A stretch of DNA of 63,780 bases from Acidobacteriota bacterium (GTDB lineage Bacteria > Acidobacteriota > Vicinamibacteria > Vicinamibacterales > JAKQTR01). The position numbers and the translations under genes were made by a program. Below, piece by piece: positions 2,378 through 20,934 of this stretch. The DNA lies in contig JAPKZO010000015.1 in the NCBI GenBank assembly GCA_026393755.1, positions 1 through 63,780 of the forward strand, in the 5' to 3' direction. Under the pieces are notes generated by a model. That model made no database searches. It was not told the DNA's origin and saw only the letters and a list, made by a program, of their open reading frames with translations. Positions within the stretch are counted from its first letter, which is position 1; every line of letters starts with the position of its first letter.

Positions 2378-2435
2378 TGGTGCCGGAGGAGGGAATCGAA
2401 CCCACACTCTCATTGCTGAGAACGGGATTTTGAGT
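2378..2435 (-). other. Attachment-site remnant: 3' half of tRNA-Leu(CAA)
   Basis: It matches the intact tRNA at 22893 from the encoded CCA (TGG at 2378-2380) through acceptor, T arm, variable arm and into the anticodon loop (TTTTGAGT), then diverges. It carries TTCGATT in the T loop where the intact gene has TTCAATT. It has no 5' half, so it is not a functional tRNA. Confidence 0.85.
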
Positions 2436-3220: not shown

Positions 3221-3462
3221 ATATTACGCCAAGGTGCAGGGACGAGAGAAAGCGCTGCCCAACGATCGCGCTCACCGGCGGCTAGTGGTGAGACTGCCGA
3301 ACCACGCGGGCACCCGCGTTGCCGTTCAGCGGCAGCGCCCCGCCTGCAACGCGGGATGCCCGGGATGTTTGAGCAGGGGTTTCACAACCTCGGAGGGCGC
3401 AGTTTCCCGCCCATGTGGCCAGGTTGTGAAACCACTTGCAGCCTCGGCCCAGAAGAACGGCG

Positions 3463-4536: not shown

Positions 4537-4848
4537 GTGCCCTCCTCCTGGTATGACGCCGGGGGCATGTCGAACTTGCCGAAAGGAAGACTATATAACG
4601 TCGCAATAGCGGTACCAATCCGCACCTGGCCCCTGCGCGGGGGACCGGCGAGCGCGGCTCACAAAAGTCTTTGCTTGGGACGACGGAGTTCTTCGCCGCC
4701 CTGACAAGTCCGCCGCTGGAGCCCGGGTGTCGATCCATAAGGGGAGCTTACGCTCTGACAGATGCCGCCGGTGGGGGACAGTACCGGCGACGCTGGGTCG
4801 CTCTTTGCCAGCCGCGCCTTCTCGATGACGGAACCTGGGGTGACTATA
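4537..4848. other. Non-coding right end of E1
   Basis: About 310 bp upstream of the exported enzyme gene. AT-rich GACTATATAACG near 4590 could hold its promoter on either strand. No gene, repeat family or integrase remnant could be identified. Confidence 0.4.
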
Positions 4849-4906
4849 TGGTGCCGGAGGAGGGAATCGAACCCACACTCTCATTGCTGAGAACGGGATT
4901 TTGAGT
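4849..4906 (-). other. Attachment-site copy: 3' half of tRNA-Leu(CAA)
   Basis: Identical over 58 bp to the copy at 2378, including the encoded CCA (TGG, 4849-4851), then diverging right after TTTTGAGT in the anticodon loop. It marks the junction between E1 and E2. Confidence 0.85.
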
Positions 4907-4955
4907 AGTCGGAGCGTCTTCCCGACGATCCGCGAAATCAGGCGCAAACCCAACA

Positions 4956-4986
4956 GGGACCGGACGTTACCCGGTCCCTTTCTTTT
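4956..4986 (+). terminator. Rho-independent terminator at E2 left end
   Basis: Perfect stem GGGACCGG (4956-4963) and CCGGTCCC (4971-4978) with a 7-base loop, followed by TTTCTTTT. It would stop rightward transcripts entering E2 from the left. Confidence 0.7.
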
Positions 4987-5025
4987 ACGGCGAGTGAGCC
5001 AGAAAACGGCGAATGCGGACGCGGC

Positions 5026-5050
5026 AGGGACACCGAAAGGGACAGGGACA
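5026..5050 (+). repeat. AGGGACA repeats near E2 left att
   Basis: Three copies of AGGGACA at 5026, 5038 and 5044. Similar GGGACA motifs occur in the last 45 bp before the right att (17427-17468). Matching short repeats at both ends are what integrase arm-type sites look like. Confidence 0.45.
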
Positions 5051-5092
5051 CGAAACGGCGTAGAATCAGCGCGTCCCCCTTGGAGGTGCTTT

Positions 5093-5401
5093 GTGGACGT
5101 GAAGATGATTCTGCCGTTTCATGTCACCGGGACTGGGGGGAACCGCAAGTTTGAGGCAAAGAAGACTATTAGCCTTCCCGACATCGGGATGCGTTTCAGT
5201 GTGGTCGTGTATTTCGCGGATACCAAGTTCTCCGCGAATACCGCACCGCTCGTCTGGGATGAGCGAGACGGGCTACTCCTTCGTTTCGATGAGACGGTCG
5301 TGAAGTTTGAGGGGACATCGTTCGATCCATCGCCAGCGCGGATGCTGATTGAGGAGCTCCAGCATCCCGGCGACGGCTGGAGCGTGCATCCCCTCAACTA
5401 G
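5093..5401 (+). CDS. Hypothetical protein, 102 aa
   Basis: The GTG at 5093 is preceded by GGAGG (5082-5086) at good spacing. The frame remains open further upstream, but that stretch covers the terminator and att. The protein has alternating hydrophobic residues (MRFSVVVYFADTKF, DGLLLRFDETVVKF) suggesting a small beta-rich fold, and a charged C-terminus. No family is recognised. Its last bases overlap convergently by 8 bp with the leftward regulator gene, a compact arrangement that supports it being real. Confidence 0.55.
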   Translation: MDVKMILPFHVTGTGGNRKFEAKKTISLPDIGMRFSVVVYFADTKFSANTAPLVWDERDGLLLRFDETVVKFEGTSFDPSPARMLIEELQHPGDGWSVHPLN

Positions 5402-6209
5402 GCGGCCGTGTGGTGCGGCGCCTTCCGTTCGCGGCCACCTTTCGGAGGCGGGCCGTCCTGGCAGGGTCTAGCGCCGTCAGGCTGCCACCCGCTAGGCCGG
5501 GATCGACCGCCGGCGTGAGGAAACCGCGAACTCTCGCCCGGTGAACCCATTGACGAACAAGGTTCACTGACGCATTCGGATGACGCCTGGCTACATCGGC
5601 AACCGGCCTGACACTTCCGTCGTTGAACGCCGCAACGTACTCGCGGGCGATGGTTCGATAGAACGTGTCATCGCGGCCCACGGGACCGGGCTTACGGGTC
5701 GCCCGATGGATCGGATCTGCTGGAGCCTGAAACCCCGCGTGCCCCAATAGGCCGTCGTCGCTGAAAATCTGTTCGCCGCGTTCCGTGCCCACTTGGCGAA
5801 GGAACTTCTTCAGGAATCGCCGCCACTCGCCGATGCGAACGCGCCGGAGTACGCCAGCCGTCAAACCGCCTGGCGGGATGCCCTTCACGGAAACGCCGCG
5901 CGCCTCGCCGCTCCAGTGACCAAGCGGTTGATCTGTGTTCGCCGCGCTCATTGGCTCGGCTGGAAAGATGCGAAGTTCGCTCACTACCGGCTGACGATTC
6001 CGAAAGCCCAACCGAAGCGCTGCGACCCATGCCTCACCGATTGGGGCTTCGACCCACGCCTCAGAAACTGGCACCACAACGTCTCGCCTGAAGCGTCCCG
6101 ACTTGGGCTGAAACACCGGACTTGCGCCGCACTCATCGGCGGCGGCCCGGCTCAAAAGCACGTTGCGTTGTCCTAGCTGGAAATCCGCTTCCGTTCGTCG
6201 TGTGTTCAT
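5394..6209 (-). CDS. Putative DNA-binding regulator, 271 aa
   Basis: Divergent from the XRE gene. The C-terminal third contains RKPGPVGRDDTFYRTIA followed by VADVARRHPNASVNLVRQWV and RARVRGFLTPA, a helix-turn-helix arrangement common in proteins of mobile elements in high-GC bacteria. The N-terminal 150 residues have no recognised domain. The ATG at 6209 was chosen because it lies beyond the palindromic operator region; upstream codons run through operator sequence. A divergent regulator pair next to a replication module parallels the control switches of phage satellites. Target and sign of regulation are unknown. Confidence 0.65.
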   Translation of the reverse strand: MNTRRTEADFQLGQRNVLLSRAAADECGASPVFQPKSGRFRRDVVVPVSEAWVEAPIGEAWVAALRLGFRNRQPVVSELRIFPAEPMSAANTDQPLGHWSGEARGVSVKGIPPGGLTAGVLRRVRIGEWRRFLKKFLRQVGTERGEQIFSDDGLLGHAGFQAPADPIHRATRKPGPVGRDDTFYRTIAREYVAAFNDGSVRPVADVARRHPNASVNLVRQWVHRARVRGFLTPAVDPGLAGGSLTALDPARTARLRKVAANGRRRTTRPPS

Positions 6210-6231
6210 GTTCACGACTCTATCACAACCC

Positions 6232-6292
6232 GTAACGGCTGCATATGAGTATTCAGTAACGGTCAGTCCACCCGTTACAGATGCGGTATATT
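6232..6292. promoter_or_regulatory. Operator with three GTAACGG half-sites, divergent promoters
   Basis: GTAACGG occurs at 6232-6238 and 6256-6262 (direct, 24 bp apart), and its reverse complement CCGTTAC at 6272-6278, forming a palindrome with a 9-bp spacer. A -10-like TATATT for the rightward gene is at 6287-6292, so the palindrome covers the likely -35 region. This is typical of a repressor-controlled switch. Confidence 0.6.
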
Positions 6293-6320
6293 GGACATGC
6301 ACACGTTAGGAGCCAACGAT

Positions 6321-6575
6321 ATGACCAGACTTCAACAGGAGCGACGGCGCCGGGATTGGACGCAGCAAGACCTGGCGTTCTACGCCCGCGTCACTTGTGC
6401 CGATGTCTCCCGCTGGGAAAACGGCATGGCGAAGCCGTATCCCTCGCAGGCGGCCCGGCTCGCAAAGACGCTCGGGCTTGACCCGGCCGATCTTCTCTGC
6501 CCTGTCGAGGCAGTCACCGACGAATCGCGCGACGTGAACCAGGACGGCTCACTTCGAGACAGGCTGCGAGCCTGA
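6321..6575 (+). CDS. XRE-family helix-turn-helix regulator
   Basis: An 84-residue Cro/CI-type DNA-binding protein. The HTH spans roughly residues 3-60: RLQQERRRRDWTQQDLAFYA, then the recognition segment TCADVSRWENGMAKPYPSQA and LAKTLGLDPADLL. The ATG at 6321 is preceded by AGGAG (6308-6312). As the first gene after a palindromic operator and divergent from another regulator, it probably sets the on/off state of E2's replication and packaging genes. Confidence 0.85.
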   Translation: MTRLQQERRRRDWTQQDLAFYARVTCADVSRWENGMAKPYPSQAARLAKTLGLDPADLLCPVEAVTDESRDVNQDGSLRDRLRA

Positions 6576-6627
6576 CACACGAAGGGCCGCGACGCTGGCA
6601 GGCGTGCGGCCCGGGACGGGGAAAACG

Positions 6628-6858
6628 ATGTCACCAGTATACACCGAAACGCTTTCTCACCTTCGCGTGCTTGGCGAGTGCGTCACTGACGCGGCGGCCG
6701 ATCTTGACCAGGAACGGCGGGATGTGAACGCCGGCGTTGTCCGAATGCACGAGAAATCGGCGCGTCTCGTCGACTTCGAGAACCAACGCGAGCGAGCGTT
6801 GCGCGACGCAATCAAAGAAGTCGGAATCGAGGCTGTCGCCCGATCGGTGTACCTGTGA
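6628..6858 (+). CDS. Small charged protein, 76 aa
   Basis: It starts at ATG 6628 after a GGGGA ribosome site. The sequence is mostly helical and charged (ECVTDAAADLDQERRDVN, FENQRERALRDAIKEVG), suggesting a short coiled coil. Its stop overlaps the start region of the primase-helicase gene, implying translational coupling and a role in the same early operon. No family is recognised. Confidence 0.6.
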   Translation: MSPVYTETLSHLRVLGECVTDAAADLDQERRDVNAGVVRMHEKSARLVDFENQRERALRDAIKEVGIEAVARSVYL

Positions 6859-8903
6859 TGCTCGACACCCCGATCGCGCGCTTCCTCGCAGCCTTACCCA
6901 ACGGTGCCCAACAGAACGGGCACGGCTGGCAGGGACGGTGCCCGGCTCACGAAGACGATCGCGCGTCGCTCTCGATTTCTCAAGGTGACGACGGCCGCGT
7001 GCTGTTGAAGTGTCACGCCGGCTGCACGGCCGCGTCGATCGTGGCGGCGGTTGGGCTCCAGATGCGCGACTTGTTTTCTGCCCGGGAGCATCACGCGCCA
7101 GAGATGACCTTCGACTACCGCGACGAATCCGGCGTGCTTCTCTTCGAGGTGTGCCGTTTCCCGAACAAGCAATTCCGCCAGCGACGGCCGGACGGATCGG
7201 GCGGTTGGATCTGGTCACTCGGGGACGTGCGGCGCGTGATCTATCGGCTGCCGGAGCTCGCCGGCAAAGAGGCAGTCGCTACTGTGGAAGGCGAGAAAGA
7301 CGCGGACCGCCTCTGGTCGATCGGTGTACCGGCCACCACGAACGCGGGAGGGGCTGGCAAGTGGCGTGACGAGTACTCCGCTCAGTTGAAGGCGGCCGGC
7401 TGCAAACGCGTCGCCGTCCTGCCCGACAACGATCCGCCCGGCGAAGCTCATGCACGCGCGGTTGCCCGGTCCTGCCATGCGGCGGGCCTCAGTGTGAAGA
7501 TCGTCACGCTGCGGGACTTGCCCGCAAAGGGTGACGTGAGCGACTACCTGCAAACGCACGACAAAGCGGCGTTACTGGCGTGCATCCGCGACGCGGCGCC
7601 TTTCGATCCGCAACAGTCCGCCGCGGCGCCGATTGGCGGCACACCCTTCGAGTTGACCTCTCTTCGAGACTTGCTCGCCGAGCCCGACGATCAAGTCGAG
7701 TGGTTGGTTGATTGTCGCATTCCGACCGGCGCGGTCGTGCTGGTCGTTGGCGCGCCGAAGGCGGGCAAGAGCACGCTCGTCCGGGACTTGGAATTGTCGG
7801 TCGGGAGCGGCACGCCGTTCCTGGGTTGGCGTACGGCATACGCTCCGGTGTGGCACTGCGCGTTCGAGGAAAAGCGATCCGAAATTCGGAAACACTTTCG
7901 ATCGATGGGCGCGACCGGCCACGAACCGATCCGACTTTTCGTGTCGCAGGCTCCAACAGACATCCTCCCAAAGCTCCGCGAGTTGGCGGAACGCGAGCGA
8001 CCCGGGGTGATCGTGCTCGACCCGCTACAGCGGGCGCTCCGCGTGCGGGACTTGAACGATTACGCGCAGACGACGTTGGCGTTTGATCCGATCCTGAAGT
8101 TGGCTCGCGAGACGGGCGCGACACTCATCCTCGTGCACCACGCGAGCATGCACCACACCCGCCAAGGCATCGACGCCATTCTCGGCAGCACGGCCCTGGC
8201 CGGCAGCGTTGACCAGGTGTTCGTCCTGGCCCGCAATGGCCAACAGCGGGCGCTCTCCAGCACGCAACGGATCGGCGACGACCTGGAGCCCGTCATCATT
8301 GAACGCGACTCCACCACGGGCCGCCTTCGCATCGCTGGCACTAAACGCCAAGTGGACGACGACCAGATGGAACAGCGGATGCTCGACGCGCTGGGTAGCG
8401 TGAGCGAGCCCGTTCCCGAAACGTGGTTCGAGGCACACGTCGAGGGGCGCAACGCGGACCGCGTGAGATGCCTTCGCCGGTTGTGCGGCATGAACCGCGT
8501 TCAACGCTGTGGCGGCGGCGGCCGAAAAGACCCATACCGCTACAAGTTGAGTCTCGGGGATTCATGTTCCCGGGACTCGGGAAATTCACCGAATTCTGAA
8601 AAGTGCCGGGAACCTCAATCGAGTAGCAGTTTCATTGATCGAAACCTCGATTTCGGTGATGAGGTTCCGGGGTTCCCTATAAGGAACCTTGGGAACAAGA
8701 ACTACGAAAGCCCTGTACGTACTCTTCGAGGTTCTTCCTACCGCGACACTCAAAGCGTTCATGTTCCCGAGGTTCCGCAGGTTCCCGAGGTTCCGGGCTG
8801 TTCAGAGAATCGCGAGATAGACGGCTCGGAAACCGCAGAAACACCCGATAGAACCGAGTCCGATTCAGGTTCCCGAGACTTCGAGGAAGGCGCCGATGTC
8901 TGA
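6858..8903 (+). CDS. CHC2-Toprim primase fused to RepA-like hexameric helicase
   Basis: About 681 residues; ATG 6858 overlaps the previous stop, and a GTG lies at 6855. Domain order (numbering from 6855): a CHC2-like zinc finger (CPAH at about 29, CHAGC near 56), a Toprim domain with EGEKDA (Glu about 145) and LPDNDPPG, then a RecA/RepA AAA_25 domain with Walker A GAPKAGKS (about 299-306), Walker B VIVLDPLQRAL and LILVHHAS. This is the composition of self-contained replication proteins of satellites and small phages, which prime and unwind at a local origin. The last 110 residues are low in complexity, with VPEVPQVPEVPG, where the DNA carries iteron-like repeats. Confidence 0.85.
   Translation: MLDTPIARFLAALPNGAQQNGHGWQGRCPAHEDDRASLSISQGDDGRVLLKCHAGCTAASIVAAVGLQMRDLFSAREHHAPEMTFDYRDESGVLLFEVCRFPNKQFRQRRPDGSGGWIWSLGDVRRVIYRLPELAGKEAVATVEGEKDADRLWSIGVPATTNAGGAGKWRDEYSAQLKAAGCKRVAVLPDNDPPGEAHARAVARSCHAAGLSVKIVTLRDLPAKGDVSDYLQTHDKAALLACIRDAAPFDPQQSAAAPIGGTPFELTSLRDLLAEPDDQVEWLVDCRIPTGAVVLVVGAPKAGKSTLVRDLELSVGSGTPFLGWRTAYAPVWHCAFEEKRSEIRKHFRSMGATGHEPIRLFVSQAPTDILPKLRELAERERPGVIVLDPLQRALRVRDLNDYAQTTLAFDPILKLARETGATLILVHHASMHHTRQGIDAILGSTALAGSVDQVFVLARNGQQRALSSTQRIGDDLEPVIIERDSTTGRLRIAGTKRQVDDDQMEQRMLDALGSVSEPVPETWFEAHVEGRNADRVRCLRRLCGMNRVQRCGGGGRKDPYRYKLSLGDSCSRDSGNSPNSEKCREPQSSSSFIDRNLDFGDEVPGFPIRNLGNKNYESPVRTLRGSSYRDTQSVHVPEVPQVPEVPGCSENREIDGSETAETPDRTESDSGSRDFEEGADV
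8567..8890. repeat. GGTTCC/GGAACC iteron-like cluster, candidate replication origin
   Basis: Within the 3' end of the primase-helicase gene. It includes TTCCCG-5-CGGGAA (8567-8583), CGGGAACCTC (8607), GAGGTTCCGG (8661), GGTTCC (8671), GGAACC (8683), GGGAAC (8691), GAGGTTCTTCC (8728), GTTCCCGAGGTTCC (8763), GGTTCCCGAGGTTCC (8780), and GGTTCCCGAG (8869). Copies in both orientations argue against pure codon repetition. Origins inside the replication gene are known in lambdoid phages. Confidence 0.55.
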
Positions 8904-9177
8904 CGCGACGCACCAAACGGCGCAAGGCGGGGAAAACGGGGCCTCAGGAATGGGCCTCGAAGCACTCGCCGACAGCGCAGATCGAATCCTGACGCGCGGC
9001 CCGCGACTCCTGGACGCAAAGACGGCCGCCCGGGCACTCGGCTTGCCGTACACGAGCCTTCGAGACGCGACGTTTCGCGGGGAACTCGCCGTCGTGAAAG
9101 TCGGTCGACGCTGGTTCTTCGATCGGCGCGACCTGGAACGGTTCATCGAGTCGCACAAGGAAAGGTATTCGGCATGA
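8896..9177 (+). CDS. Excisionase-like HTH_17 DNA-binding protein
   Basis: 93 residues overlapping the primase gene by 8 bp. The C-terminal half is a winged-helix/MerR-like fold: LLDAKTAARALGLPYTSLRD, then VVKVGRRWFFDRRDLERFIE, the pattern shared by excisionases and plasmid RdfS-type factors. The first 30 residues are probably disordered. It is predicted to bind att arm sites to direct excision, or to act as a small regulator; position in the early operon supports the first. Integrase for the same element is at 16387. Confidence 0.75.
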   Translation: MSDATHQTAQGGENGASGMGLEALADSADRILTRGPRLLDAKTAARALGLPYTSLRDATFRGELAVVKVGRRWFFDRRDLERFIESHKERYSA

Positions 9178-9293
9178 GCCCACTTTCAGGGATAGTCCGG
9201 GGACAGTCGGCGCAAACAGGCCCGGATTCCCGGCCTGATTTTGACGGGCCTTGGATAGAGAATCCCGCGCGGATTCGGAGCGTCACCACATGA
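9174..9293 (+). CDS. 39-aa bridging open frame
   Basis: It begins with an ATGA overlap on the excisionase-like gene and ends four bases into the terminase small subunit start, so it fills the gap exactly. Such double overlaps suggest a translated coupling peptide. The sequence (MSPLSGIVRGQSAQTGPD at the start) has no recognised motif and may not have its own function. Confidence 0.4.
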   Translation: MSPLSGIVRGQSAQTGPDSRPDFDGPWIENPARIRSVTT

Positions 9294-9844
9294 GCGGCAA
9301 GCCTGGACGAAGCGGACCGCCCGCGAATGCGAACGCGCAACGCTCCGGACTGTACGCGCGGGCACAAACCGGCCTTCAGCGTCGGGACCGGCGCGTCCGG
9401 CGACTTGTCGCGAAAGTGCTCCGGGCCATGCCCGGGCTTCAGCCGTCCGACGTGCCGACGTTGCGGGCGTGGTGTGAACTCGAAGTGCTTGCCGCCTTCG
9501 CGTTCCTGGACTTGACCGACAAGGGCGCCGACGGCGGACCGCGATTGACGACTGAGACCGGCACGCCTCGCCGGATGTTGGACGCCTACCGCCAGCTTCG
9601 ACAAGCGCAGTTGCCGTACGCGCGGGAACTCGGGCTCACACCGGCGGCCCGGAAGTCGCTTGGACTGTCCGATCGTCGGGAAGTGACACTCGAAAGCTAC
9701 CTCGAAGCCCGCTACGCCTCGCAGGACGCGACGCCAGCGACCATCGACGCTCACGTTGACCACAGCGACGAACGCGCACCACGGGCCGATTCTGCCAGCG
9801 GGGCGGGCGATTCCGTCGAACCTGAGAACAGCGAGCAAGCATGA
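9290..9844 (+). CDS. Phage terminase small subunit-like protein
   Basis: 184 residues from ATG 9290, overlapping both neighbours. The N-terminus (KPGRSGPPANANAQRSGLYA) is a typical basic start of small terminases, followed by a helical region with LRAWCELEVLAAFAFLDL and YRQLRQAQLPYARELGLTPAARKSLGL, which resembles the P27-family C-terminal pattern. It would recognise a packaging site and deliver DNA to the large subunit encoded immediately downstream with a 4-bp overlap. In satellites, a private small terminase redirects helper packaging to satellite DNA. The call depends partly on context. Confidence 0.65.
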   Translation: MSGKPGRSGPPANANAQRSGLYARAQTGLQRRDRRVRRLVAKVLRAMPGLQPSDVPTLRAWCELEVLAAFAFLDLTDKGADGGPRLTTETGTPRRMLDAYRQLRQAQLPYARELGLTPAARKSLGLSDRREVTLESYLEARYASQDATPATIDAHVDHSDERAPRADSASGAGDSVEPENSEQA

Positions 9845-11523
9845 CGATACGCGCCACACTCCGAACGCTCACGTTTGCCGACGCGATCGCCGATCGTCAT
9901 CTCTTCGGCGCCCTGTCCCACTATCGCGACGTGTCGCCCTGGCATCGGTGGATCGTGTGGTCGAAGGCGCAAGACGGCGCGACACTCACGCCGGAGGAAG
10001 TCGAGATCTTCACTCGGCACACGGGCCGGGCCGCCTACATCCCGCCGGCTGGCGGATGGGCGCAAGCCGTCGTGATCACGGGCAGGCAAAGCGGCAAGAC
10101 GCAAACCGCCGGCACACTCGGGGCAATCGCGGCCGTGACCCGGGCGAAGCCGGGCGAGTACGTGATCCTGCTGGCGCAAGATCAACGGGCCGCCTTGCGA
10201 ACCCTGTTCCGGGCCGCGTGTGAACCCTTCGACAAGATCCCGCTCTTCCGGGCGCGAGTGCGGGCGCGTCGGGCCGATTCCCTCGAACTCGATAACGGCG
10301 TGATTCTCGCCGCGTATCCGTGCCGGCCGGCGAGCGTGCGTGGGCTGCGAGCAGCGCTTGTGGTCCTGGACGAAGCCGCGTTCTATCGCAACAGCGACAA
10401 CCTGCCAATCGATCGCGAGATGTTGACAGCCGTCAAGCCGTGCCTTGCGACCACGGGCGGGAAGTTGATCGTCTTGAGCAGCCCGTACGGTCAGAGCGGC
10501 GTGCTGTACGAGATGCACCGTCGCGCGTTTGGCACCGACGATCCGCATTCGCTCGTGTGGCAGGCGTCGGCGCCAGAGATGAACCCGACACTCCCGGCCG
10601 ACTACCTCGCCCGCATGGAGCAGGACGATCCGGACGCGTATCGGTCTGAAGTGCTCGGAGAGTTTCGACAAGGGCTGTCGACGTTGCTGGACCCGGACGC
10701 GATCGCGGCGTGCGTGGCGGACGGCGTATTCGAGCGACCCTTTGAACCGTCCGTGCGTTATCAGGCCGGCGGCGACGCGGCGAGCGGAACGGGCAAGGAT
10801 GCGTTCACGGTCGGGATTGCCGGAAAGGTCGACGACAAGTCCGTCCTGTTCGCGTTGCGCGCATGGAAACCGCCCTTCAACCCGTCGGGTGTCATCGCTG
10901 AAATCTCGGACTTGCTCAAGAGCTACGGTCTGCGCGAGATCACGATGGATCGGTACGCGGCCGGCTTTCCGATTGAACAGTTTCGATCGCATGGTGTGAC
11001 GGTGAAGCCGTCGACGCGGGACCGCTCCGTGATCTATCTCGACTTCCTGCCGCTCGTGAACGCGGGCCGCGTCGTGCTGTTGGATCAACCCGACCTGTTG
11101 CGGGAACTTCGAGGCTTGGAACGTCGACGCGGGCCAAGTGGACGCGATCGAGTGGATCACTTCGGGGCGGGATCTCACGACGATCGCGCCAACAGTGCAG
11201 CCCTGGCGCTCACGCTCATCGGTGTGCACGCGCCAACCGGAATGCAGCAATTCGACCCGCTGTCCGGCCGGATTATCAACGGCCTCTATGGCGACATCGA
11301 ATATCGGGACGGAAGGCCAGTCCCGCCAGCCGGGCCGGTTACGTTCTATGACCAGCCGACGAAACCCGGCGTCCGGGTTCCAACCGTGCGGGTTGTGCGG
11401 GGCGACGGCTACGTGACCATCAACGCGACGGACTTCGACGAATCACGGCACACGCTCTGGACTGGTGACGACGCCAGCCAACCACCGGCCGCAAGCGCGG
11501 TCATCGTCAAACTCGTTCGATAG
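9841..11523 (+). CDS. Phage terminase large subunit
   Basis: 560 residues, the DNA-packaging motor with ATPase and nuclease domains. Walker A is TGRQSGKT (residues 80-87), Walker B is ALVVLDEAAFY (Asp177, Glu178), followed by the coupling segment GKLIVLSSPYGQSG. The RNase-H-like nuclease starts at GGDAASGTGKDAF (Asp312), with a second acidic site in REITMDRYAAGFPIEQF and SHDDRANSAALAL at the end. All catalytic features look intact. No portal gene follows, which is the usual neighbour in a full prophage. Confidence 0.9.
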   Translation: MTIRATLRTLTFADAIADRHLFGALSHYRDVSPWHRWIVWSKAQDGATLTPEEVEIFTRHTGRAAYIPPAGGWAQAVVITGRQSGKTQTAGTLGAIAAVTRAKPGEYVILLAQDQRAALRTLFRAACEPFDKIPLFRARVRARRADSLELDNGVILAAYPCRPASVRGLRAALVVLDEAAFYRNSDNLPIDREMLTAVKPCLATTGGKLIVLSSPYGQSGVLYEMHRRAFGTDDPHSLVWQASAPEMNPTLPADYLARMEQDDPDAYRSEVLGEFRQGLSTLLDPDAIAACVADGVFERPFEPSVRYQAGGDAASGTGKDAFTVGIAGKVDDKSVLFALRAWKPPFNPSGVIAEISDLLKSYGLREITMDRYAAGFPIEQFRSHGVTVKPSTRDRSVIYLDFLPLVNAGRVVLLDQPDLLRELRGLERRRGPSGRDRVDHFGAGSHDDRANSAALALTLIGVHAPTGMQQFDPLSGRIINGLYGDIEYRDGRPVPPAGPVTFYDQPTKPGVRVPTVRVVRGDGYVTINATDFDESRHTLWTGDDASQPPAASAVIVKLVR

Positions 11524-11537
11524 ACAGGAGACAGCAG

Positions 11538-11837
11538 ATGAACATCAAGTATTTCCCGAATCCCCTTTCCGTCGGCGTATTCAGTCAGGCACGCCCCGCG
11601 CCCGATCCGGCCTCCGTCATCGCGTTGGCGACGGCGCGCAAGGCCACGGTCGATGCCCGGATCGTCTCGCTCACGGCGGAACTGGAGACGGCCTGTGCGG
11701 CGGCGATGACCGACGAAGTGCGTATCGGGTCCGGCGCATCGGCCGGCGCGGACATCGGCCGGTTGACGAACGAGTTGACCGAGGCGGAGGGGCAGTCGGA
11801 ATTCTACACAAGGGCTCTCACGGCTTTGAACGCGTAA
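11538..11837 (+). CDS. Small coiled-coil protein, 99 aa
   Basis: It lies 14 bp after the terminase with ACAGGAGA before the ATG at 11538. Residues 28-60 (ALATARKATVDARIVSLTAE) and the C-terminal third (GRLTNELTEAEGQSEFYTRA) form probable helices with heptad spacing. It occupies the place of head or packaging accessory genes in phages, but no family is recognised. Confidence 0.6.
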   Translation: MNIKYFPNPLSVGVFSQARPAPDPASVIALATARKATVDARIVSLTAELETACAAAMTDEVRIGSGASAGADIGRLTNELTEAEGQSEFYTRALTALNA

Positions 11838-11869
11838 CCACGGACACACGAACATAGGAGCACACGAAC

Positions 11870-12526
11870 ATGTTGAAAGTTCTACCCTTCGGCGATTCGG
11901 TCAACGCGCTGCTTCCCGGCTTGAAGCCGGAACACAAAGACGGCTTTCTCTCGAAGGCGAAGGACATCGGCTTGATCCTCGAAAACTTCCAACTGCGGCG
12001 CGAGCGCGTCAAGACGGCCTACGTGGCCAGCGAACAGAAGGGCAAGATCAGAGAGGCCGCCCTGCTCGCGCGGACCGCCCTGAGTGAGCGCAGAGCGAAG
12101 CACGTCGACCCCCTTCAGGCCAAGGCGACGACGGAGCGGGAGCGGTTGCGCGCCCTGTCGGCGTACGACGCGCCGAAGGTCGATCCGGTGCTGGCGTTTT
12201 TGCGTGGGTCCGAAATCCGGGCACGGCTGGTCGGGAAGAAAGATTTCGAGCTCACGGCCATGCTCGCGCAAGCGGTCAAGAACGGCGACAAGGAGTTTGT
12301 CCAGGCGTTGAAGGATGCGCCGCGGATGTTCCCGACCGTGCCCTTCGAGGAACTTCGCGCGATCGATGACGCGCGGATCGCCAGCATGAATCCCGAGCTT
12401 GCCGAGTTGGACCACCTGGCCGGCAACTACAAGTCGCTCATTGCGTGCGTCGAAGAGCACGTCAAAGAGGCGTTGCGCGAAGAGGGCATCGAGCCCCAGG
12501 GCACCGACGGGATCACGATTCTGTAA
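11870..12526 (+). CDS. Hypothetical helical protein, 218 aa
   Basis: It starts at ATG 11870 after ATAGGAG. It is rich in Lys, Glu, Arg and Ala with long helices (LSKAKDIGLILENFQLRRER, ALRDAPRM-type segments, ASMNPELAELDHLAGNYKSL). The C-terminus ends EEGIEPQGTDGITIL. It could be a structural or scaffold-like protein of E2, or a host-targeting factor. It does not look like a known capsid: no HK97 features are visible. Confidence 0.6.
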   Translation: MLKVLPFGDSVNALLPGLKPEHKDGFLSKAKDIGLILENFQLRRERVKTAYVASEQKGKIREAALLARTALSERRAKHVDPLQAKATTERERLRALSAYDAPKVDPVLAFLRGSEIRARLVGKKDFELTAMLAQAVKNGDKEFVQALKDAPRMFPTVPFEELRAIDDARIASMNPELAELDHLAGNYKSLIACVEEHVKEALREEGIEPQGTDGITIL

Positions 12527-12693
12527 TCGCTCGCCTGGGGCGGGCGTGGGCGCTCGCTGAGTGGGCGCCTGGCCTGGCTCGTGAACGTTCTCCCCAATCA
12601 CGGGCCGGGCTTCGTTTCAACCTGAGGGCGCGCGGCGGTATCGGCCGGCGCCCACGGTGACGCGGTAGAGCGGGATCTGATTCGAGGATGAAC

Positions 12694-12888
12694 ATGGACA
12701 ACAACGAGACGACTTTCGAGGATATGCCGCTTTCGTGCTGCGACTGCGGCCAGTCCTTTGTCTGGACGGCGGGGCAGCGGCGGTTCTATGCCGAGCGGGA
12801 ACTGAGTCAACCGAAGCGGTGTTCGACCTGCCGGCAGATCAAGCGCACTGAGTGGGCCACGCGCGACGCGGAGCGGGTCGAGCGATGA
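12694..12888 (+). CDS. Zinc-ribbon protein (zf_Tbcl type)
   Basis: 64 residues; ATG 12694 has GAGG at ideal spacing, better than the ATG at 12688. The fold signature is clear: CCDCGQSFVWTAGQRRFYAE followed by PKRCSTCRQIKR, i.e. two CxxC knuckles separated by about 30 residues, as in the probable zinc-ribbon domain found in many bacterial small proteins. Function in general is unknown. It overlaps the nuclease gene downstream by ATGA. Confidence 0.75.
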   Translation: MDNNETTFEDMPLSCCDCGQSFVWTAGQRRFYAERELSQPKRCSTCRQIKRTEWATRDAERVER

Positions 12889-13172
12889 ACACGGCACACA
12901 AGGGCCGAAGGGCTGAGCATCGGGCGCGTCACCTGCTCGAGGCGAGCGGCTACACGGTGACGCGGGCGGCGGGCTCGAAGGGGCTGGCGGATCTCATCGC
13001 ATGGGACGCGATCGGCTTCCGGCTTATCAGCGTCAAGAGCGGCACGGCGTACGCGTCCGCGCTCGAGCGGGAAGCCCTGGCGAGCTGCCTGGCGCCAGCG
13101 AACACGACGAAGGAAATCTGGCGGTTTCCGGATCGGTGTCGCGTGCCGGCGATTGAAAGGATCGAGCCATGA
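12885..13172 (+). CDS. PD-(D/E)XK nuclease, Holliday-resolvase or VRR-NUC-like
   Basis: 95 residues from ATG 12885. KGRRAEHRARHLLEASGYTV supplies the helix with the family Glu, GSKGLADLIAWD supplies the catalytic Asp, and RLISVKSG gives the xxK motif. This matches archaeal Hjc and VRR-NUC-type minimal nucleases. In phages and satellites such enzymes resolve branched replication intermediates before packaging, a sensible role next to a primase-helicase and terminase. The position normally Glu/Gln before K is Ser (SVK), which is seen in some relatives. Confidence 0.7.
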   Translation: MNTAHKGRRAEHRARHLLEASGYTVTRAAGSKGLADLIAWDAIGFRLISVKSGTAYASALEREALASCLAPANTTKEIWRFPDRCRVPAIERIEP

Positions 13173-13969
13173 AACGACCGTGCTTCGTGCTGTGCCTCGT
13201 TGCGGCGCTCGCGGTGTCTGCGCTCGCGCCGTGCCTGTCGGCGACCGCGATTGTCGTGTTCCGTCAACCGACGCACATCATTCTCGCCGGTGATTCCGTC
13301 CTAGCCGGCCGCGATGACGGCCAGACCGAGACGCGCTTCCTCCGGAGCTGCAAGGTCCGTCCGGCTGGCAAATGGTGGTTCGTCATCGGCGGGTTTTCGC
13401 GGCGAGTCGGGACCCACGCGATCGACGTGTACGAGGTGGTGGAGCAGGCCATCGCGCCGACGGCCACCATGTTAGACGCCCTGGAGGCGATTCGCCGGAA
13501 CGCCGGGCCCGTGTACGCCAGCCTCAAAGCCTCTCAGTCAGCCAAACCGGCAGCGTCGGGCCTGCCTCTCTTGACCATCGTGATCGGCGGTCTCGATCGC
13601 GGGGTCTTGACCGTCGGAGCCTTCAGCTTCGAGCTGCAGCGGGCCGATCCTTTCGAGGCGACGGCAACCTTGGGCACGTGTCCGGGCCCTGGGTGTGACG
13701 CCGACGGCGCGGTGTTCTATGCCGCCAGCGTGGGAGCGGACATGCCCGCCGTGAAACTGATGAATCAGCGACCGCGCCCGCCGTGGTTGCAGGCCGGGAC
13801 CGCCGCCGCGGCTCGCCGGCTGATCTTGCTGCAGGCGGCGGCGACGCCGACGCGGGTCGGCGGCCCTGTCGATGTGTTGGAAATTCGCGCCGATGGTGGC
13901 GCACGGTGGATGTGGCGCGATGCGGCCTCGACCTGTCCAGCGATTCCGATCAGGCCGAAAGGACGGTAA
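13169..13969 (+). CDS. Exported Ntn-hydrolase-like (proteasome-fold) protein
   Basis: 266 residues with a signal peptide (VLCLVAALAVSALAPCLS). After the predicted cleavage comes ATAIVVFRQPTHIILAGDS, which resembles the N-terminal strand of proteasome-type Ntn hydrolases, where a Thr after processing is the nucleophile and a following strand carries AADS-like residues. CKVRPAGKWWFVIGGFSRR fits the next strands. Similar exported proteins are common in Acidobacteriota. Cleavage that leaves Thr26 as N-terminus is inferred. In E2 it sits within an operon with other exported proteins, and may be satellite cargo that alters the host surface or targets a competitor. Confidence 0.55.
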   Translation: MKRPCFVLCLVAALAVSALAPCLSATAIVVFRQPTHIILAGDSVLAGRDDGQTETRFLRSCKVRPAGKWWFVIGGFSRRVGTHAIDVYEVVEQAIAPTATMLDALEAIRRNAGPVYASLKASQSAKPAASGLPLLTIVIGGLDRGVLTVGAFSFELQRADPFEATATLGTCPGPGCDADGAVFYAASVGADMPAVKLMNQRPRPPWLQAGTAAAARRLILLQAAATPTRVGGPVDVLEIRADGGARWMWRDAASTCPAIPIRPKGR

Positions 13970-13971
13970 TC

Positions 13972-14706
13972 ATGACAACGAGAATGCGCGCGTGTGTGGC
14001 TCTCTCTCTGGTGTGTGTCGTCGTCGGCGGCGCCACGCTGAGCGCGGAAATCACCGCGACGTCCGGAAGCATCACGGGAGGGATGGCGATCGGGACCGCG
14101 GGAAATATCCACTCCGGCGCATCGGCCTACGGCACCGGGACCGGCTGGTGGATGGACTACAACACCGGCACGCCACGGCTGCGCGTGGGCGATCCGGCGG
14201 GGAACCGACTGCAATGGGACGGGACGAACCTGACGCTCATCTCCAGCGAAGTCACGATCGACGCCGACGGGATCAAGATCAACAAGGGCACCGGCACGGC
14301 CAACCAATTGAAGTGGGTCGATGGCGCCCTATCGGCCGGGATGTATTACTTCAACTCTGGCACCCCGTCGCTTGAGATCTTTTCGCCGTCTGGCGGGGTG
14401 ATGGACTTGACTGTCGGATCGAACAGTCTCAGCCTCAGCGGCGTCTCGCTGCTCTCGAATGGCATCACCACGATCGGCAATTCGTTCGTGCCGTTCGCGG
14501 CGATCTATGCGACGACGTACTATGGCGGCGCCGCCGTGGCTGGCGTGACGGACAATTTCGTGTGCGGCGCGAACAAGGTAGAGAGCATCTACGTCGCGGG
14601 GGGGATTGTGACGGCGGTCGATTGTGGGACCGACACGACGTCGGCCCGGATCGCCTCATTGGAACGGCGGATCGCGGAACTCGAAGCGATGCTGGCGCGT
14701 CGATGA
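13972..14706 (+). CDS. Exported tail-fibre-like beta-rich protein
   Basis: 244 residues from ATG 13972. It has a signal-like N-terminus (VALSLVCVVVGGATLSAE), then a Gly/Thr/Ser/Asn-rich body with repeated short strands (GTGWWMDYNTGTPRLRVGD, LQWDGTNLTLISSEVTIDAD, LTVGSNSLSLSGVSLLSNG) and a C-terminal heptad segment (RIASLERRIAELEAMLARR). The layout, including a trimerising end, resembles phage tail-fibre or appendage proteins, but a signal peptide is unusual for those, so it may instead form a surface fibre of the host. No enzymatic motif. Confidence 0.55.
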   Translation: MTTRMRACVALSLVCVVVGGATLSAEITATSGSITGGMAIGTAGNIHSGASAYGTGTGWWMDYNTGTPRLRVGDPAGNRLQWDGTNLTLISSEVTIDADGIKINKGTGTANQLKWVDGALSAGMYYFNSGTPSLEIFSPSGGVMDLTVGSNSLSLSGVSLLSNGITTIGNSFVPFAAIYATTYYGGAAVAGVTDNFVCGANKVESIYVAGGIVTAVDCGTDTTSARIASLERRIAELEAMLARR

Positions 14707-15065
14707 GAGCGGCGATCGCGGCCCTGCTCGTGCTGCTGGTGGTGGCTCCGGCGTCCGCGCAATCGCTGCGCCGGGCCACGGCTACATACGCGCACGGGGT
14801 GGCGCTGGACTATGCGACGACGTATCAGGCGTTGGGGCGGGGCGCCAGAGAGACGAATCCAGTCGTGAACTGGATACCCAACCGAAGCGCGATGCTGGCG
14901 GTTGGCGCGGCTGGAGATGCGGCGGGCGCCTATCTCTGGGTCAAGGTGGTCGGCAAGAAGCACCGCAGACTCGCAGCCATCGGCCTCTACGTCGCGGCCG
15001 GGGTCCGCGTCTGGCTGGCGGTCCACAATGACCGGGTGTGCCGGCCCGGGCTGGCGCGTCGATGA
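14703..15065 (+). CDS. Membrane protein, 120 aa
   Basis: It overlaps the previous gene by ATGA. N-terminal signal or anchor (IAALLVLLVVAPASAQS), then HGVALDYATTYQALGRGARETNPVVNW, which resembles the DxxTT...ExNP pattern of small DUF5658-like membrane proteins, and a second hydrophobic segment (MLAVGAAGDAAGAYLWVKVV) and third (LAAIGLYVAAGVRVWLAV). The role is unknown; position suggests the same exported-protein module. Confidence 0.6.
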   Translation: MRAAIAALLVLLVVAPASAQSLRRATATYAHGVALDYATTYQALGRGARETNPVVNWIPNRSAMLAVGAAGDAAGAYLWVKVVGKKHRRLAAIGLYVAAGVRVWLAVHNDRVCRPGLARR

Positions 15066-15256
15066 GACGCCGGCCGGTTCGGCGTGTCCTGGCGGTTCCA
15101 CCGGCGGCGACGTGGCGACGGTGCGCGGGCTGCGCTGGCCTGTTCGTGCCGGTCCGGCCGCGGCAGACGCACTGCCGGCCGAGTTGCGCCCGGGTCACGG
15201 GTGACGGGAAGGACCGCGCGCCGGATCTATTTGCGGAGCTGGACGGCCAGCCATAG
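15062..15256 (+). CDS. Small Cys-rich zinc-finger protein, 64 aa
   Basis: It starts by ATGA overlap. It is basic at the N-terminus (MRRRPVRRVL) with CAGCAGLFVPVRPRQTHC and PSC forming a CxxC...CxxxC pattern like the next zinc-finger gene (CVQCGLTFPPGRADKRFC). Both may derive from the same family of phage zinc-finger proteins that bind nucleic acid. Confidence 0.55.
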   Translation: MRRRPVRRVLAVPPAATWRRCAGCAGLFVPVRPRQTHCRPSCARVTGDGKDRAPDLFAELDGQP

Positions 15257-15279
15257 CAGCTAGGGAACAGGAGCGGGTC

Positions 15280-15513
15280 ATGAGCCAGGCACAGCCCGAA
15301 GTCTCACCACAAGCCGAACGTGCGGCATTGGCGGGCTATCTCCGCTGCGTCCAGTGTGGCCTCACGTTTCCACCGGGGCGGGCCGACAAGCGATTCTGTA
15401 CCGACCGCTGTCGGGCAGCCGCCAACCGGGAAGCCCGGGCCGCCAAGGTCCGGCGCATGGAAGGCTTGATTGCGGAATTGTCCCGGCTGACGGGATCGTC
15501 TGATTCCGCTTGA
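15280..15513 (+). CDS. Zinc-finger protein, 77 aa
   Basis: GGAGCG precedes ATG 15280. The central motif LRCVQCGLTFPPGRADKRFC and TDRC has the CxxC-x(14)-CxxxC layout of treble-clef fingers seen in HNH-associated or DUF2116-type proteins. It is followed by a basic helix (AAANREARAAKVRRMEGLI). Probably nucleic-acid binding. Second of two similar fingers in a row. Confidence 0.65.
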   Translation: MSQAQPEVSPQAERAALAGYLRCVQCGLTFPPGRADKRFCTDRCRAAANREARAAKVRRMEGLIAELSRLTGSSDSA

Positions 15514-15537
15514 CACTATGTAGACTCTGTATAGAAT
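15510..15537 (+). promoter_or_regulatory. Sigma-70-like promoter for the ribbon-helix-helix gene
   Basis: TTGACA (15510-15515), 16-bp spacer, TAGAAT (15532-15537). Transcription would start near 15544, only a few bases before ATG 15548, so the message is nearly leaderless. It gives the regulator-integrase end of E2 its own promoter. Confidence 0.55.
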
Positions 15538-15547
15538 GGTGGCAGGT

Positions 15548-15736
15548 ATGACGCCGAAGAAGTACTACACCTTCATGATCGATCTGGAACTGGCCGACGC
15601 GCTCAAGCGCGCGAAGGAACGCGATCCGGAAAGTTCTGAAGCATCAATCATCCGACGCGCGTTGCGCGAGTGGTTGGAGCGTGAAGGCGTCATCAAGGCG
15701 GACCGCAAGCGGGTACCAGCCCGCAAGCGGCCCTAA
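15548..15736 (+). CDS. Ribbon-helix-helix DNA-binding protein
   Basis: 62 residues. YYTFMIDLELADALKRAKER provides the beta strand and first helix, SEASIIRRALREWLEREGV the second helix, a CopG/Arc-like fold. The ATG at 15536 lies within the -10 box of a good promoter, so 15548 is preferred. As the first gene of a separately promoted unit leading to the integrase, it may repress integrase expression or bind att arms. A basic tail (KADRKRVPARKR) suits DNA contact. Confidence 0.7.
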   Translation: MTPKKYYTFMIDLELADALKRAKERDPESSEASIIRRALREWLEREGVIKADRKRVPARKRP

Positions 15737-15817
15737 ACCGTCACCCTGCGTAACCAGGCTGGCCGGTCTCCTGCTATTCTAGCAGCGGACCCGCCGGCCT
15801 CCAGTCCGGAGGTCACG

Positions 15818-16087
15818 ATGAAGACGAAGACACCCACACGTACCACGCCGGCCGCGGAGCCGATCGAATTCGACGCCGACGATGCTCGACACTGCCTGAC
15901 CGTGGCGATCGGGCTCTGCGAAATGGCCTCGGAAATCGTCGAGCCGGTCGGCCCCGGGGACAGGAACCACGCGCTGAGTTCGGATCTGTTCCAAGCGATG
16001 ACCTGCCTCCTCATGAAGGCGCAAGACGCCTTCGATAACGACGTCGCGCCGAGCGCCACGGACGCGGCGGCTGGAGGTGCCCGATGA
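15818..16087 (+). CDS. Hypothetical protein, paralog A of tandem pair
   Basis: 89 residues after GGAGG (15805-15809). The core FDADDARHCLTVAIGLCEMA and LFQAMTCLLMKAQDAF aligns with the next gene (DDARHTLLVLGELCSLA and LFESMACLTNKSLEFY), so the two are diverged duplicates. Mostly helical, with Cys residues at matching positions. No family recognised. ATGA overlap with its paralog suggests a heteromeric pair made in equal amounts. Confidence 0.6.
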   Translation: MKTKTPTRTTPAAEPIEFDADDARHCLTVAIGLCEMASEIVEPVGPGDRNHALSSDLFQAMTCLLMKAQDAFDNDVAPSATDAAAGGAR

Positions 16088-16383
16088 ACACGACCAAGGA
16101 ATTCACGATCGACGACGCTCGGCACACCTTGCTCGTCCTAGGCGAGCTCTGCAGCTTGGCCGGGCAGTCCGTGAAGGCGAATCGCTGCGGTTGCCTTGAC
16201 GAGATCGACCCCGACCTATTCGAGTCGATGGCGTGCCTGACCAACAAGTCGCTGGAGTTCTACGAACAGCACTGGCAAGAGATGTGGCAGGAACTGCGGG
16301 CCTTCCGGGAGCAGCGCGATCGGGCCGCGGGCCAGGCGGCGCCGGTGGCGACGCCGAAGCGGACCACGGCGAAGGGACGGTGA
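16084..16383 (+). CDS. Hypothetical protein, paralog B of tandem pair
   Basis: 99 residues, paralogous to the preceding gene, with an extra acidic-to-basic C-terminal tail (EMWQELRAFREQRDRAAGQA then KRTTAKGR). Its stop is 3 bp before the integrase start. The position immediately upstream of the integrase, and co-transcription, suggest a role in integration, excision or its control, but this is inference from order only. Confidence 0.6.
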   Translation: MNTTKEFTIDDARHTLLVLGELCSLAGQSVKANRCGCLDEIDPDLFESMACLTNKSLEFYEQHWQEMWQELRAFREQRDRAAGQAAPVATPKRTTAKGR

Positions 16384-16386
16384 CGC

Positions 16387-17469
16387 ATGGGCCAGATCCG
16401 ACAACGTGGCGCCGTCTATTGGATTCGCTACTACCGCGACGGCAAGCGGTACGAGGAAAGCACGCACAGCAAGAAGGAAGGCGCCGCGAAGCGGTTGCTT
16501 CGGCTGCGGGAAGGTGCCATCGAACAAGGCGTCCCGGTCACACCGAAGATTGGGCGACTGAAGTTCGACGACGCGGCGAAGGACTTGATCACCGACTACC
16601 GCGTCAACGGCAAGAAGTCCCTTGAGCATGTGACCCGGCGCGTCGACCAGCACTTGAAGCCCACGTTTGGCGGGCGGCGGATGACCGGGATCACGACGAC
16701 GGACGTTCGGGCCTACGTCGACAAGCGACAGAAGGAAGCGGCGGCGAACGCCAGCATCAACCGGGAACTGGCGGCGCTCAAGCGCATGTTCTCGCTGGCG
16801 ATCCAGGCCGGGAAGTTGCTTCACCGGCCCTATATCCCGATGCTGCGCGAAGACAACGCGCGGCAAGGGTTCTTCGAGCGACCGGCCTTCGAGTCCATGC
16901 GGGCGAAGTTGCCGGCCGACGTGCAACCGATCGCGACGTTCGCCTACCTCACCGGCTGGCGCGTTCAGAGTGAAGTCTTGCCGCTCACCTGGGGACAGGT
17001 GGACCGGCACGCCGGGATCGTCCGTCTGGAGTCCGGCACGACGAAGAACGGCGACGGCCGGGTATTCGACTACTCGGGACTGCCGGATCTGGTCGACCTG
17101 TTCAACGACTTGTGGACGGCTCACGAGGCGTTCGCGAAGTCGGAACACAAGATCGTGCCGTGGGTGTTCAATCGGGCCGGCAAGCAGATCCGCGACTTCC
17201 GGCACGCGTGGGAAACCGCGACGACGGCGGCGGGATGCCCGGGACGCATCCCGCACGACCTGAGGCGGACAGCCGTTCGCAATCTCGTACGCGCGGGCGT
17301 GCCGGAACGCGTCGCCATGAAAGTCACGGGGCACAAGACGCGATCGGTGTTCGATCGCTACGACATCACGAGCCCGGGTGATCTGCGCGACGCTGGAGCC
17401 AAGTTATACGAGGCCCGGAACGCGACAGGGACAATCACGGGGACAGCGACGAAAACGGGGACGGCGTGA
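16387..17469 (+). CDS. Tyrosine recombinase, integrase of E2
   Basis: 360 residues. An N-terminal AP2-like arm-binding segment (RQRGAVYWIRYYRDGKRYEE), a SAM-like core-binding domain (residues 75-150), then the catalytic domain with Arg192 in TGWRVQSEVLPLTW, His290 and Arg293 in PHDLRRTAVRNL, His316 in TGHKTRS and nucleophile Tyr325 in FDRYDI. All catalytic positions are intact. The stop is 38 bp from the att copy at 17507, the usual place of an integrase. The last 40 bp of the gene contain GGGACA repeats also found at the left end of E2. Confidence 0.92.
   Translation: MGQIRQRGAVYWIRYYRDGKRYEESTHSKKEGAAKRLLRLREGAIEQGVPVTPKIGRLKFDDAAKDLITDYRVNGKKSLEHVTRRVDQHLKPTFGGRRMTGITTTDVRAYVDKRQKEAAANASINRELAALKRMFSLAIQAGKLLHRPYIPMLREDNARQGFFERPAFESMRAKLPADVQPIATFAYLTGWRVQSEVLPLTWGQVDRHAGIVRLESGTTKNGDGRVFDYSGLPDLVDLFNDLWTAHEAFAKSEHKIVPWVFNRAGKQIRDFRHAWETATTAAGCPGRIPHDLRRTAVRNLVRAGVPERVAMKVTGHKTRSVFDRYDITSPGDLRDAGAKLYEARNATGTITGTATKTGTA
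17427..17468 (+). repeat. GGGACA repeats at E2 right end
   Basis: AGGGACA (17427), GGGGACA (17439) and GGGGACG (17457), inside the 3' end of the integrase gene. They match the triplet at 5026-5050 and are candidate arm-type sites. Confidence 0.45.
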
Positions 17470-17506
17470 CCGTCCCGAGCGTGGCTGTAAGTGCTTGAGT
17501 AGTAAG

Positions 17507-17563
17507 TGCCGGAGGAGGGAATCGAACCCACACGGGGGGTGAACCCCACGGGATTTTGAGTCC
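17507..17563 (-). other. Attachment-site copy with a different variable arm
   Basis: It matches the tRNA-Leu acceptor, T arm and anticodon loop (to TTTTGAGTCC), but the variable arm is replaced by a GGGGGGTGAACCCC-type hairpin (17534-17547), and the encoded CCA is missing (AAG in place of TGG). GTAAGTGC occurs at 17487, 17502 and 17577 around it. It is the junction of E2 and E3. Confidence 0.8.
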
Positions 17564-17610
17564 GACGAGTGTTCTAGTAAGTGCTGTATATACAATATGT
17601 TACAGTAAAT

Positions 17611-17685
17611 ACTACAAAATACGCGGCAGACATATACAAAACCGTTTCCCTCCCTGTATCATCTCTCCGTCTGCTGCTGACGGAG
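17611..17685. promoter_or_regulatory. E3 left-end arm repeats and upstream hairpin
   Basis: AT-rich DNA with ACTACAAAA (17611-17619) and TATACAAAA (17633-17641), shared with the right end of E3. CTCCGTC (17665-17671) and GACGGAG (17679-17685) form a hairpin whose right arm includes the GGAG ribosome site of the recombinase, so translation could be modulated by folding. Confidence 0.45.
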
Positions 17686-17695
17686 AACGCATCCC

Positions 17696-18889: not shown

Positions 18890-18899
18890 GGCGATCCTG

Positions 18900-20579: not shown

Positions 20580-20597
20580 GACTTGCTATCGCTTCGA

Positions 20598-20890: not shown

Positions 20891-20934
20891 TAGCGGTGCT
20901 TCGATCTGTTTCCCATTTGGCTGCGGGTTCACGA

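Follow-up and report, generated by a model that had tools for sequence, protein, structure and literature searches.

Phage-inducible chromosomal islands (PICIs) are att-bounded elements of about 10 kb, which typically combine an integrase, divergent regulators, primase-type replication and, in some cases, a terminase small subunit (TerS), but carry no capsid genes. Some SaPIs carry TerS, and in the descriptions consulted no large subunit (TerL) is attributed to PICIs (PMC10690885). The capsid-forming PICIs (cf-PICIs), averaging 14 kb, have both terminase subunits (PMC10803314), but they also encode capsid, protease, portal and connectors, and depend on the helper for tails (PMC10690885). Other small integrated elements, namely VEIMEs, tycheposons and PICMI, have been proposed or shown to be phage satellites (PMC11389934, PMC10803314); PICMI lacks identifiable packaging genes. 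The 16.8-kb satellite AH14b of Pseudomonas sp. ANT_H14, found in the capsids of helper prophage AH14a, has an integrase and a primase, but its authors found no terminase gene (PMC4936722). Finally, a partial 16.7-kb metagenome record annotated as a virus, Rctr16k (KX853514), has an integrase, a replication protein and a terminase-like gene with small genes before it and 197- and 302-aa genes after it, and no annotated capsid in the 13.3 kb examined. Its TerL, however, is distant (27% to that of the element analyzed here).

The analyzed window is a 63,780-nt stretch of an Acidobacteriota genome (GCA_026393755.1, contig JAPKZO010000015.1). In agreement with the preliminary description, which had proposed a 12.7-kb phage satellite with replication and terminase genes, we found a discrete element, E2, integrated at tRNA-Leu(CAA) (positions 4849-17561). 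It lies between a 58-nt repeat of the tRNA 3' end (left att, 4849-4906) and a copy with a diverged variable arm (right att, 17504-17561), which is 76% identical as a whole but has an identical 28-nt core. The repeat is also present at 2378 and in the intact tRNA at 22890-22978. Notably, positions 17506-17563 are identical to the tRNA-Leu of a congener (genome G090).

Profile searches with Pfam and PHROG families supported the predicted gene content; all genes are on the forward strand unless noted. The left part of E2 encodes a 102-aa protein without family (5093-5401), an XRE-type regulator (6291-6575; HTH_3, 1.5e-8) and, divergent from it, a 302-aa protein on the reverse strand (5394-6302; start uncertain). 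The latter matches no family, but resembles a 238-aa protein beside the integrase in L022, one of the TerL loci collected below (29% over 212 columns), and might be a regulator. They are followed by an 84-aa protein (6604-6858; DUF6124, 4e-4, under cut-off), a primase-helicase (6855-8903; AAA_25, 1.3e-30; phrog_239, 9.9e-40), an excisionase (Xis)-like protein (8896-9177; HTH_17, 4.2e-9; phrog_66, 3.3e-7), TerS (9251-9844; Terminase_4, 1.5e-6, over cut-off, and an alignment) and an intact-looking TerL with ATPase and nuclease residues present (9841-11523; phrog_2, 6.2e-28; Terminase_6N, 5.9e-5, just over cut-off). Downstream of TerL are the 99-aa g09 (11538-11837) and the 218-aa g10 (11870-12526), a zf_Tbcl zinc-ribbon protein (12688-12888; 2.9e-14), a weakly supported Hjc-like nuclease (12852-13172; Hjc, 0.0012, under cut-off; phrog_5018, 2e-5), the 266-aa g13 (13169-13969), the 244-aa g14 (13972-14706), a DUF5658 protein (14703-15065; 4.2e-6, over cut-off), a small, weakly matched treble-clef-like protein (15280-15513), a weakly matched ribbon-helix-helix-like protein (15536-15736; RHH_1, 0.0014, under cut-off), two paralogous proteins of 89 aa (15818-16087) and 99 aa (16084-16383), and a tyrosine integrase beside the right repeat (16387-17469; Phage_integrase, 1.8e-13; phrog_1, 4.8e-41). 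All 20 genes score as coding, the one at 15280-15513 barely. Some antisense ORFs also score positive, but they overlap TerL, g10, the primase or the integrase and are read as shadows.

No E2 protein reached a significant match to a portal, capsid, protease or lysis family. One weak match was that of the C-terminal coiled coil of g14 to phrog_1857, head-tail connector (E = 0.0095). However, g14 is 42% identical over 133 aa to a fibre-like protein of a 43-kb IMG/VR contig. Thus, the element is not wholly without virion-type genes, contrary to the preliminary description, which had recognized no tail gene. The predicted structure of g10 is all-helical and gave no informative match: there was no BFVD match at E ≤ 0.001, and comparison with the PDB listed helical bundles up to Z = 10.2, within the range common for helical models, although a new fold is not excluded. 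For g13, a low-confidence model has a proteasome/Anbu-like fold, and its N-terminus looks by eye like a signal peptide; it is probably cargo. No g13 match was found in viral contigs, and sequence matches of g13, g14 and the g10 profile to solved structures were not convincing.

To find out whether E2 is a lone remnant, we searched for relatives of its TerL. Single-sequence pattern searches found none in genome or viral contigs, and an alignment was needed. TerL relatives were then detected in 15 of 193 genomes of the class (E ≤ 1e-20) and in 26 of 396 genomes of the phylum (E ≤ 1e-30), own genome counted in both. They recur in small repeat-bounded elements in Acidobacteriota, Alphaproteobacteria and others: 46 of 177 scanned loci have an integrase beside flanking direct repeats, 35 of the 46 at tRNA genes, with a median size of 12.3 kb, although thirteen of the 46 repeats are only 16-25 nt long. 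E2 itself is not among the 46, because the best-scoring repeat pair joined 4849 to the intact tRNA. Eleven of 20 further loci of the own phylum are organized likewise. Some relatives are very compact, with TerL and integrase under 0.4 kb apart (L023, L029). In 59 TerLs, E178, D312, D370 and D448 are present in 59 and K86 in 57. Of 80 loci from genome contigs, 50 were chosen for longer flanks and 49 searched. None of the 43 portals of family PF04860, the only portal family searched in relatives, lies in a TerL locus in these 49 genomes, whereas 2 of the 49 loci (L078 and L064) hold a PF05065 capsid. L078 is nearer to the cf-PICI plan, but no PF04860 portal lies in its locus. By contrast, in reference phages S-CBS4, Riverbug and HGTV-1 a portal is found near TerL, and in MMP17 a Mu gp29-like protein.

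Relatives often carry a tape-measure gene. Among 47 bounded elements (45 of the 46, without L110, plus L027 and E2), at least 18 carry tape-measure, fibre, protease or capsid-like genes, as judged by similarity to a few representatives, and one more (L093) has a tail-protein match. Of the 193 proteins of these elements, 89, mostly from the TerL-downstream side, were compared with Pfam and PHROG families. Phrog_617 (major head) was hit by two of the 89, one being the capsid of L078 and the other unidentified, possibly the L078 protease. Cluster c9, which holds the capsid of L152, has 12 members over all loci. It should be noted that genes of all loci were predicted with our own gene finder, which can miss genes.

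Interestingly, the same genome contains a second element, of 12.84 kb, in tRNA-Arg(CCT), which shares with E2 only one tract of 82% DNA identity covering the TerL end, g09 (87% identical) and g10, as if a helper-adapting cassette were swapped. The dN/dS of g10 is 0.38, while that of g09 is 0.71, so g09 gives little sign of selection. The g10 family is found beside TerL in other elements, and g10 is linked by profile to proteins beside TerL in Alphaproteobacteria (88.7 and 86.2%). However, no homology was detected between g10 and the c18 and c32 proteins (two further clusters) that follow TerL in Bradyrhizobium-type and sphingomonad elements.

We also constructed a TerL tree by a quick method, using 82 of 168 rows (163 TerLs of at least 400 aa from the loci, four phage references and Rctr16k), with L092, L040 and L042 dropped as copies. 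Satellites did not form one clade (20 label changes), and TerLs of large IMG/VR contigs lie among them, so the lineage is shared with what are probably phages. Some branches are long, and L020, L022 and L023 were labelled satellite although the scan gave them no repeat under those identifiers.

Taken together, these results make it likely, though without induction, excision or virion data, that E2 is an integrated phage satellite that supplies its own packaging motor. In this scenario, a helper phage relieves repression, the integrase and Xis excise the element, it replicates with its own primase, its TerS chooses a satellite packaging site, its TerL docks on the helper's portal and fills helper heads, and helper tails and lysis release it. 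The TerL end, g09 and g10 would be a swappable cassette fitting the satellite to a given helper head, with g10 possibly acting as an adaptor, a scaffold-like factor or an interference factor, whereas g14 may add or replace a tail fibre. E2 shares with PICIs the integrase, divergent regulators (one of the two divergent genes has no family), primase and TerS, but keeps TerL as well, followed by g09 and g10. None of the head genes of cf-PICIs was recognized in E2. Overlap with VEIMEs and tycheposons is not excluded, and the novelty of this arrangement is provisional. No resident helper could be identified, as the own genome has no PF04860 or PF05065 match.

Alternatively, E2 might be a decaying prophage that lost head, tail and lysis genes and retained the terminase pair. 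The scattered tape-measure, fibre, protease and, in L078, capsid genes of relatives are what half-lost prophages would show, the mixing of satellite TerLs with those of large viral contigs points the same way, and descent from prophages by loss is not excluded. Nevertheless, we consider this unlikely, because the same core without a PF04860 portal recurs in many loci in different tRNA genes, the TerL residues are kept in nearly all of the 59 sequences, integrase, primase and TerS are intact in E2, and some relatives are very compact. Relatives appear mostly to be small att-bounded elements with integrase, TerS and TerL rather than complete prophages. No capsid or portal fold, which would have contradicted the preliminary description, appeared in the 218- and 244-aa proteins, the 99-aa protein not having been modelled. 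Still less likely, E2 could encode its own unrecognized head proteins and borrow only tails, like a cf-PICI with divergent genes. Several E2 proteins do lack a family, and L078 and L064 carry a PF05065 capsid, but apart from primase, TerL and integrase the largest E2 proteins have only 302, 266, 244 and 218 aa, which is probably small for a portal, and the predicted folds or similarities of g10, g14 and g13 are helical, fibre-like and proteasome-like, respectively. Equally doubtful is the possibility that the terminase pair acts on phages, in interference or defence, and that E2 moves by other means. Although several relatives carry defence-type cargo (XamI, AbiJ, DNA methylase and others among the 89 proteins), TerS and TerL are kept together with ATPase and nuclease residues, and element sizes fall in a satellite-like range.

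More tentatively, and with less support than the reading of E2 itself, there might be a broad, undescribed class of capsid-less, terminase-bearing satellites in Acidobacteriota and Alphaproteobacteria, with finds in other groups, which mirrors the cf-PICIs: it would bring the motor, and often tail parts such as a tape measure or fibre, steal heads, and re-target helpers by swapping the TerL-end/g09/g10 cassette. In the descriptions consulted here, satellites redirect the helper's terminase, ride in its heads without packaging genes, or build their own heads. A class that brings a full terminase but no head must make its own motor dock on a foreign portal, which would make motor-portal matching and its evolution directly testable. 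It would also place satellites in Acidobacteriota and in rhizobial and sphingomonad lineages.

The contig belongs to a 4.43-Mb genome assembled in 42 contigs. A tRNA-Leu(CAA) gene lies at 22890-22978 on the minus strand and its 3′ end is repeated at 17504, 4849 and 2378, so three segments stand in a row at this tRNA, the element designated E2 being the middle one. The integrase of E2 ends about 35 bp before the right repeat. Family searches identified in E2 an XRE regulator, a primase-helicase, an Xis-like protein, TerS, TerL and a tyrosine integrase. The only virion-type hint among the results of these searches is a weak match to phrog_1857 (E-value = 0.0095) on the coiled coil of g14, a 244-aa protein. 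Of the two neighboring segments, the one at 17504-22890 encodes a 397-aa recombinase-like protein (17696-18889), which was matched by our integrase profile but by no Pfam family, an N6/N4 methylase with an Mrr-like C-terminus (18900-20579) and a resolvase (22063-22806). The 2.5-kb segment at 2378-4849 lies between two identical att copies and encodes an Exo_endo_phos protein (3463-4536) but no integrase; possibly, it is an element remnant.

The repeat copy at 17504 differs from the others in the variable arm. Intriguingly, positions 17506-17563 are identical over 58 nt to the tRNA-Leu of the congener G090, whose flank matches the window in three blocks (82.9-90.3%) up to this tRNA and which carries a different 3.2-kb insert in the same tRNA-Leu (locus L246, 7368-10643). 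If the crossover lies upstream of the variable arm, as we infer, E2 brought in a tRNA end of the type now seen in the sister species, which hints at transfer but does not prove it. The congener also has its own TerL element (locus L282, contig C45 of G090) with TerS, a 963-aa tape-measure-like protein and an integrase, although no repeat pair was found there.

To assess how widespread such elements are, we searched for homologs of the E2 TerL. It matches 15 of 193 genomes of its class at E ≤ 1e−20, whereas the TerL profile (A1) matches 26 of 396 genomes of its phylum at E ≤ 1e−30, the genome of E2 itself being counted in both cases. Around many of these TerLs the order integrase, Xis-like protein, AAA primase, TerS, TerL, small gene and 220-280-aa gene recurs. 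A scan of 177 loci for direct repeats gave 46 with the repeat beside an integrase, ranging from 6.4 to 18.3 kb (median 12.3 kb), 35 of them at a tRNA gene. Of the 46 repeats, 33 are 34 nt or longer, whereas 13 are 16-25 nt and weak. Of 20 further loci from the same phylum, 17 have an integrase and 11 are repeat-bounded (9 at tRNA genes; 8.7-16.4 kb). Among these 20 loci, two show an S78 protease and two a tape measure, whereas none shows a capsid as judged by the one representative used. In locus L034 (3584-15098), TerL and TerS lie beside genes which, by eye, appear to be type I restriction genes and an ATPase.

The loci examined for head genes reach about 10 kb on either side of TerL, less at contig ends, and portal families other than PF04860 were not searched. 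In annotated phages with related TerL, a portal lies nearby in S-CBS4, Riverbug and HGTV-1, and a Mu gp29-like protein in MMP17. Among 47 bounded elements, similarity to representatives revealed a tape measure in 15, a fibre in 3, a DUF2213-type protease in 3, and an S78 protease, a phrog_530-type protease and a capsid in 1 each, whereas 29 show none of these; it should be noted that this test misses g14 of E2 and a tail protein in locus L093. L120, a locus from the E2 clade of the TerL tree, has a Mu-like protease. Thus, the family is not strictly free of virion genes, tail genes being the commonest. This is against the plainest form of the claim made in the preliminary description, namely, a satellite with replication and terminase genes but without virion genes, and leaves open an origin by loss from prophages. 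In the phylogenetic tree of TerL, satellite and IMG/VR TerLs are interleaved, with 20 label changes compared to a mean of 25.4 in shuffled labels (as low in 2 of 500 shuffles). E2, L022, L023 and L120 form a clade (SH-aLRT 100). Among INPHARED phages, 85 records match the E2 TerL, none at 60% identity or more and none covering 80%. The partial 16.7-kb record named Virus Rctr16k (KX853514) has integrase, replication and terminase-like genes and no annotated capsid in the part seen, and may be a satellite.

In 59 TerLs (48 from the first set and 11 from the second), E178, D312, D370 and D448 are present in 59, G81 and D447 in 58, and K86 in 57. The profile matches T4 gp17 and phage TerL nuclease domains in the PDB.

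Interestingly, the same genome has a second terminase-bearing element (locus L247, 505-13395, on contig C22), which is 12.84 kb long, bounded by tRNA-Arg(CCT) and a 53-column repeat (96%), and has its own primase and integrase. Its primase is of another type (NrS-1 polymerase HBD and DUF3987), the E2 integrase does not match it at E ≤ 1e−3, and TerL is 40% identical (54% over residues 460-560). Yet one DNA tract, positions 11419-12662, is 82% identical and covers the end of TerL, the 99-aa protein g09 (87% protein identity, dS 0.09, dN/dS 0.71) and the 218-aa protein g10 (74%, dS 0.55, dN/dS 0.38). The uneven dS suggests exchange. We infer that this cassette matches the satellites to a helper.

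Profile comparison links g10 to protein clusters c12 (88.7%) and c15 (86.2%), and these to each other (98.4%), whereas no link to clusters c18 or c32 was seen. The structural model of g10 is all-helical (pLDDT 83, pTM 0.69). g10 itself matches no PHROG at E ≤ 0.01, and two unnamed families are each hit by one of 23 members. In 396 genomes of the phylum, six places have E < 1e−7, two of them in the genome of E2. Of the other four loci, L266 (8050-13803) is an element with an integrase, an Xis-like protein, a primase and a g10-like protein but no terminase; L268 has a g10-like protein and a 769-aa protein in the place of a tape measure, with no TerL seen; L269 has the g10-like protein near a serine recombinase; and L267 is cut by a contig end. 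Thus, g10 marks a wider group than TerL does.

As for the remaining genes, g14 resembles a protein of a 43-kb IMG/VR contig (L250), which we read as a tail fibre from its place after a tail-type gene; this contig represents a candidate kind of helper. The protein g13 (13169-13969) has a signal-like start, weak relatives in 7 other genomes of the class and a predicted proteasome/Anbu-like fold, albeit in a low-confidence model (pLDDT 60), and is probably cargo. Notably, phage AH14a of Pseudomonas also lists a proteasome subunit beta shortly before its terminase (PMC4936722). The genome of E2 has no PF04860 or PF05065 match, so a resident helper of those types is not seen.

In a literature survey (including PMC10690885, PMC11389934, PMC10803314 and PMC4936722) that was not exhaustive and did not cover the cf-PICI, VEIME, tycheposon and SatelliteFinder papers, we found no description of satellites with TerS and TerL but no capsid. 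Although everything beyond gene content and comparison is inference, E2 is a real element and is most likely a satellite that brings its own terminase.
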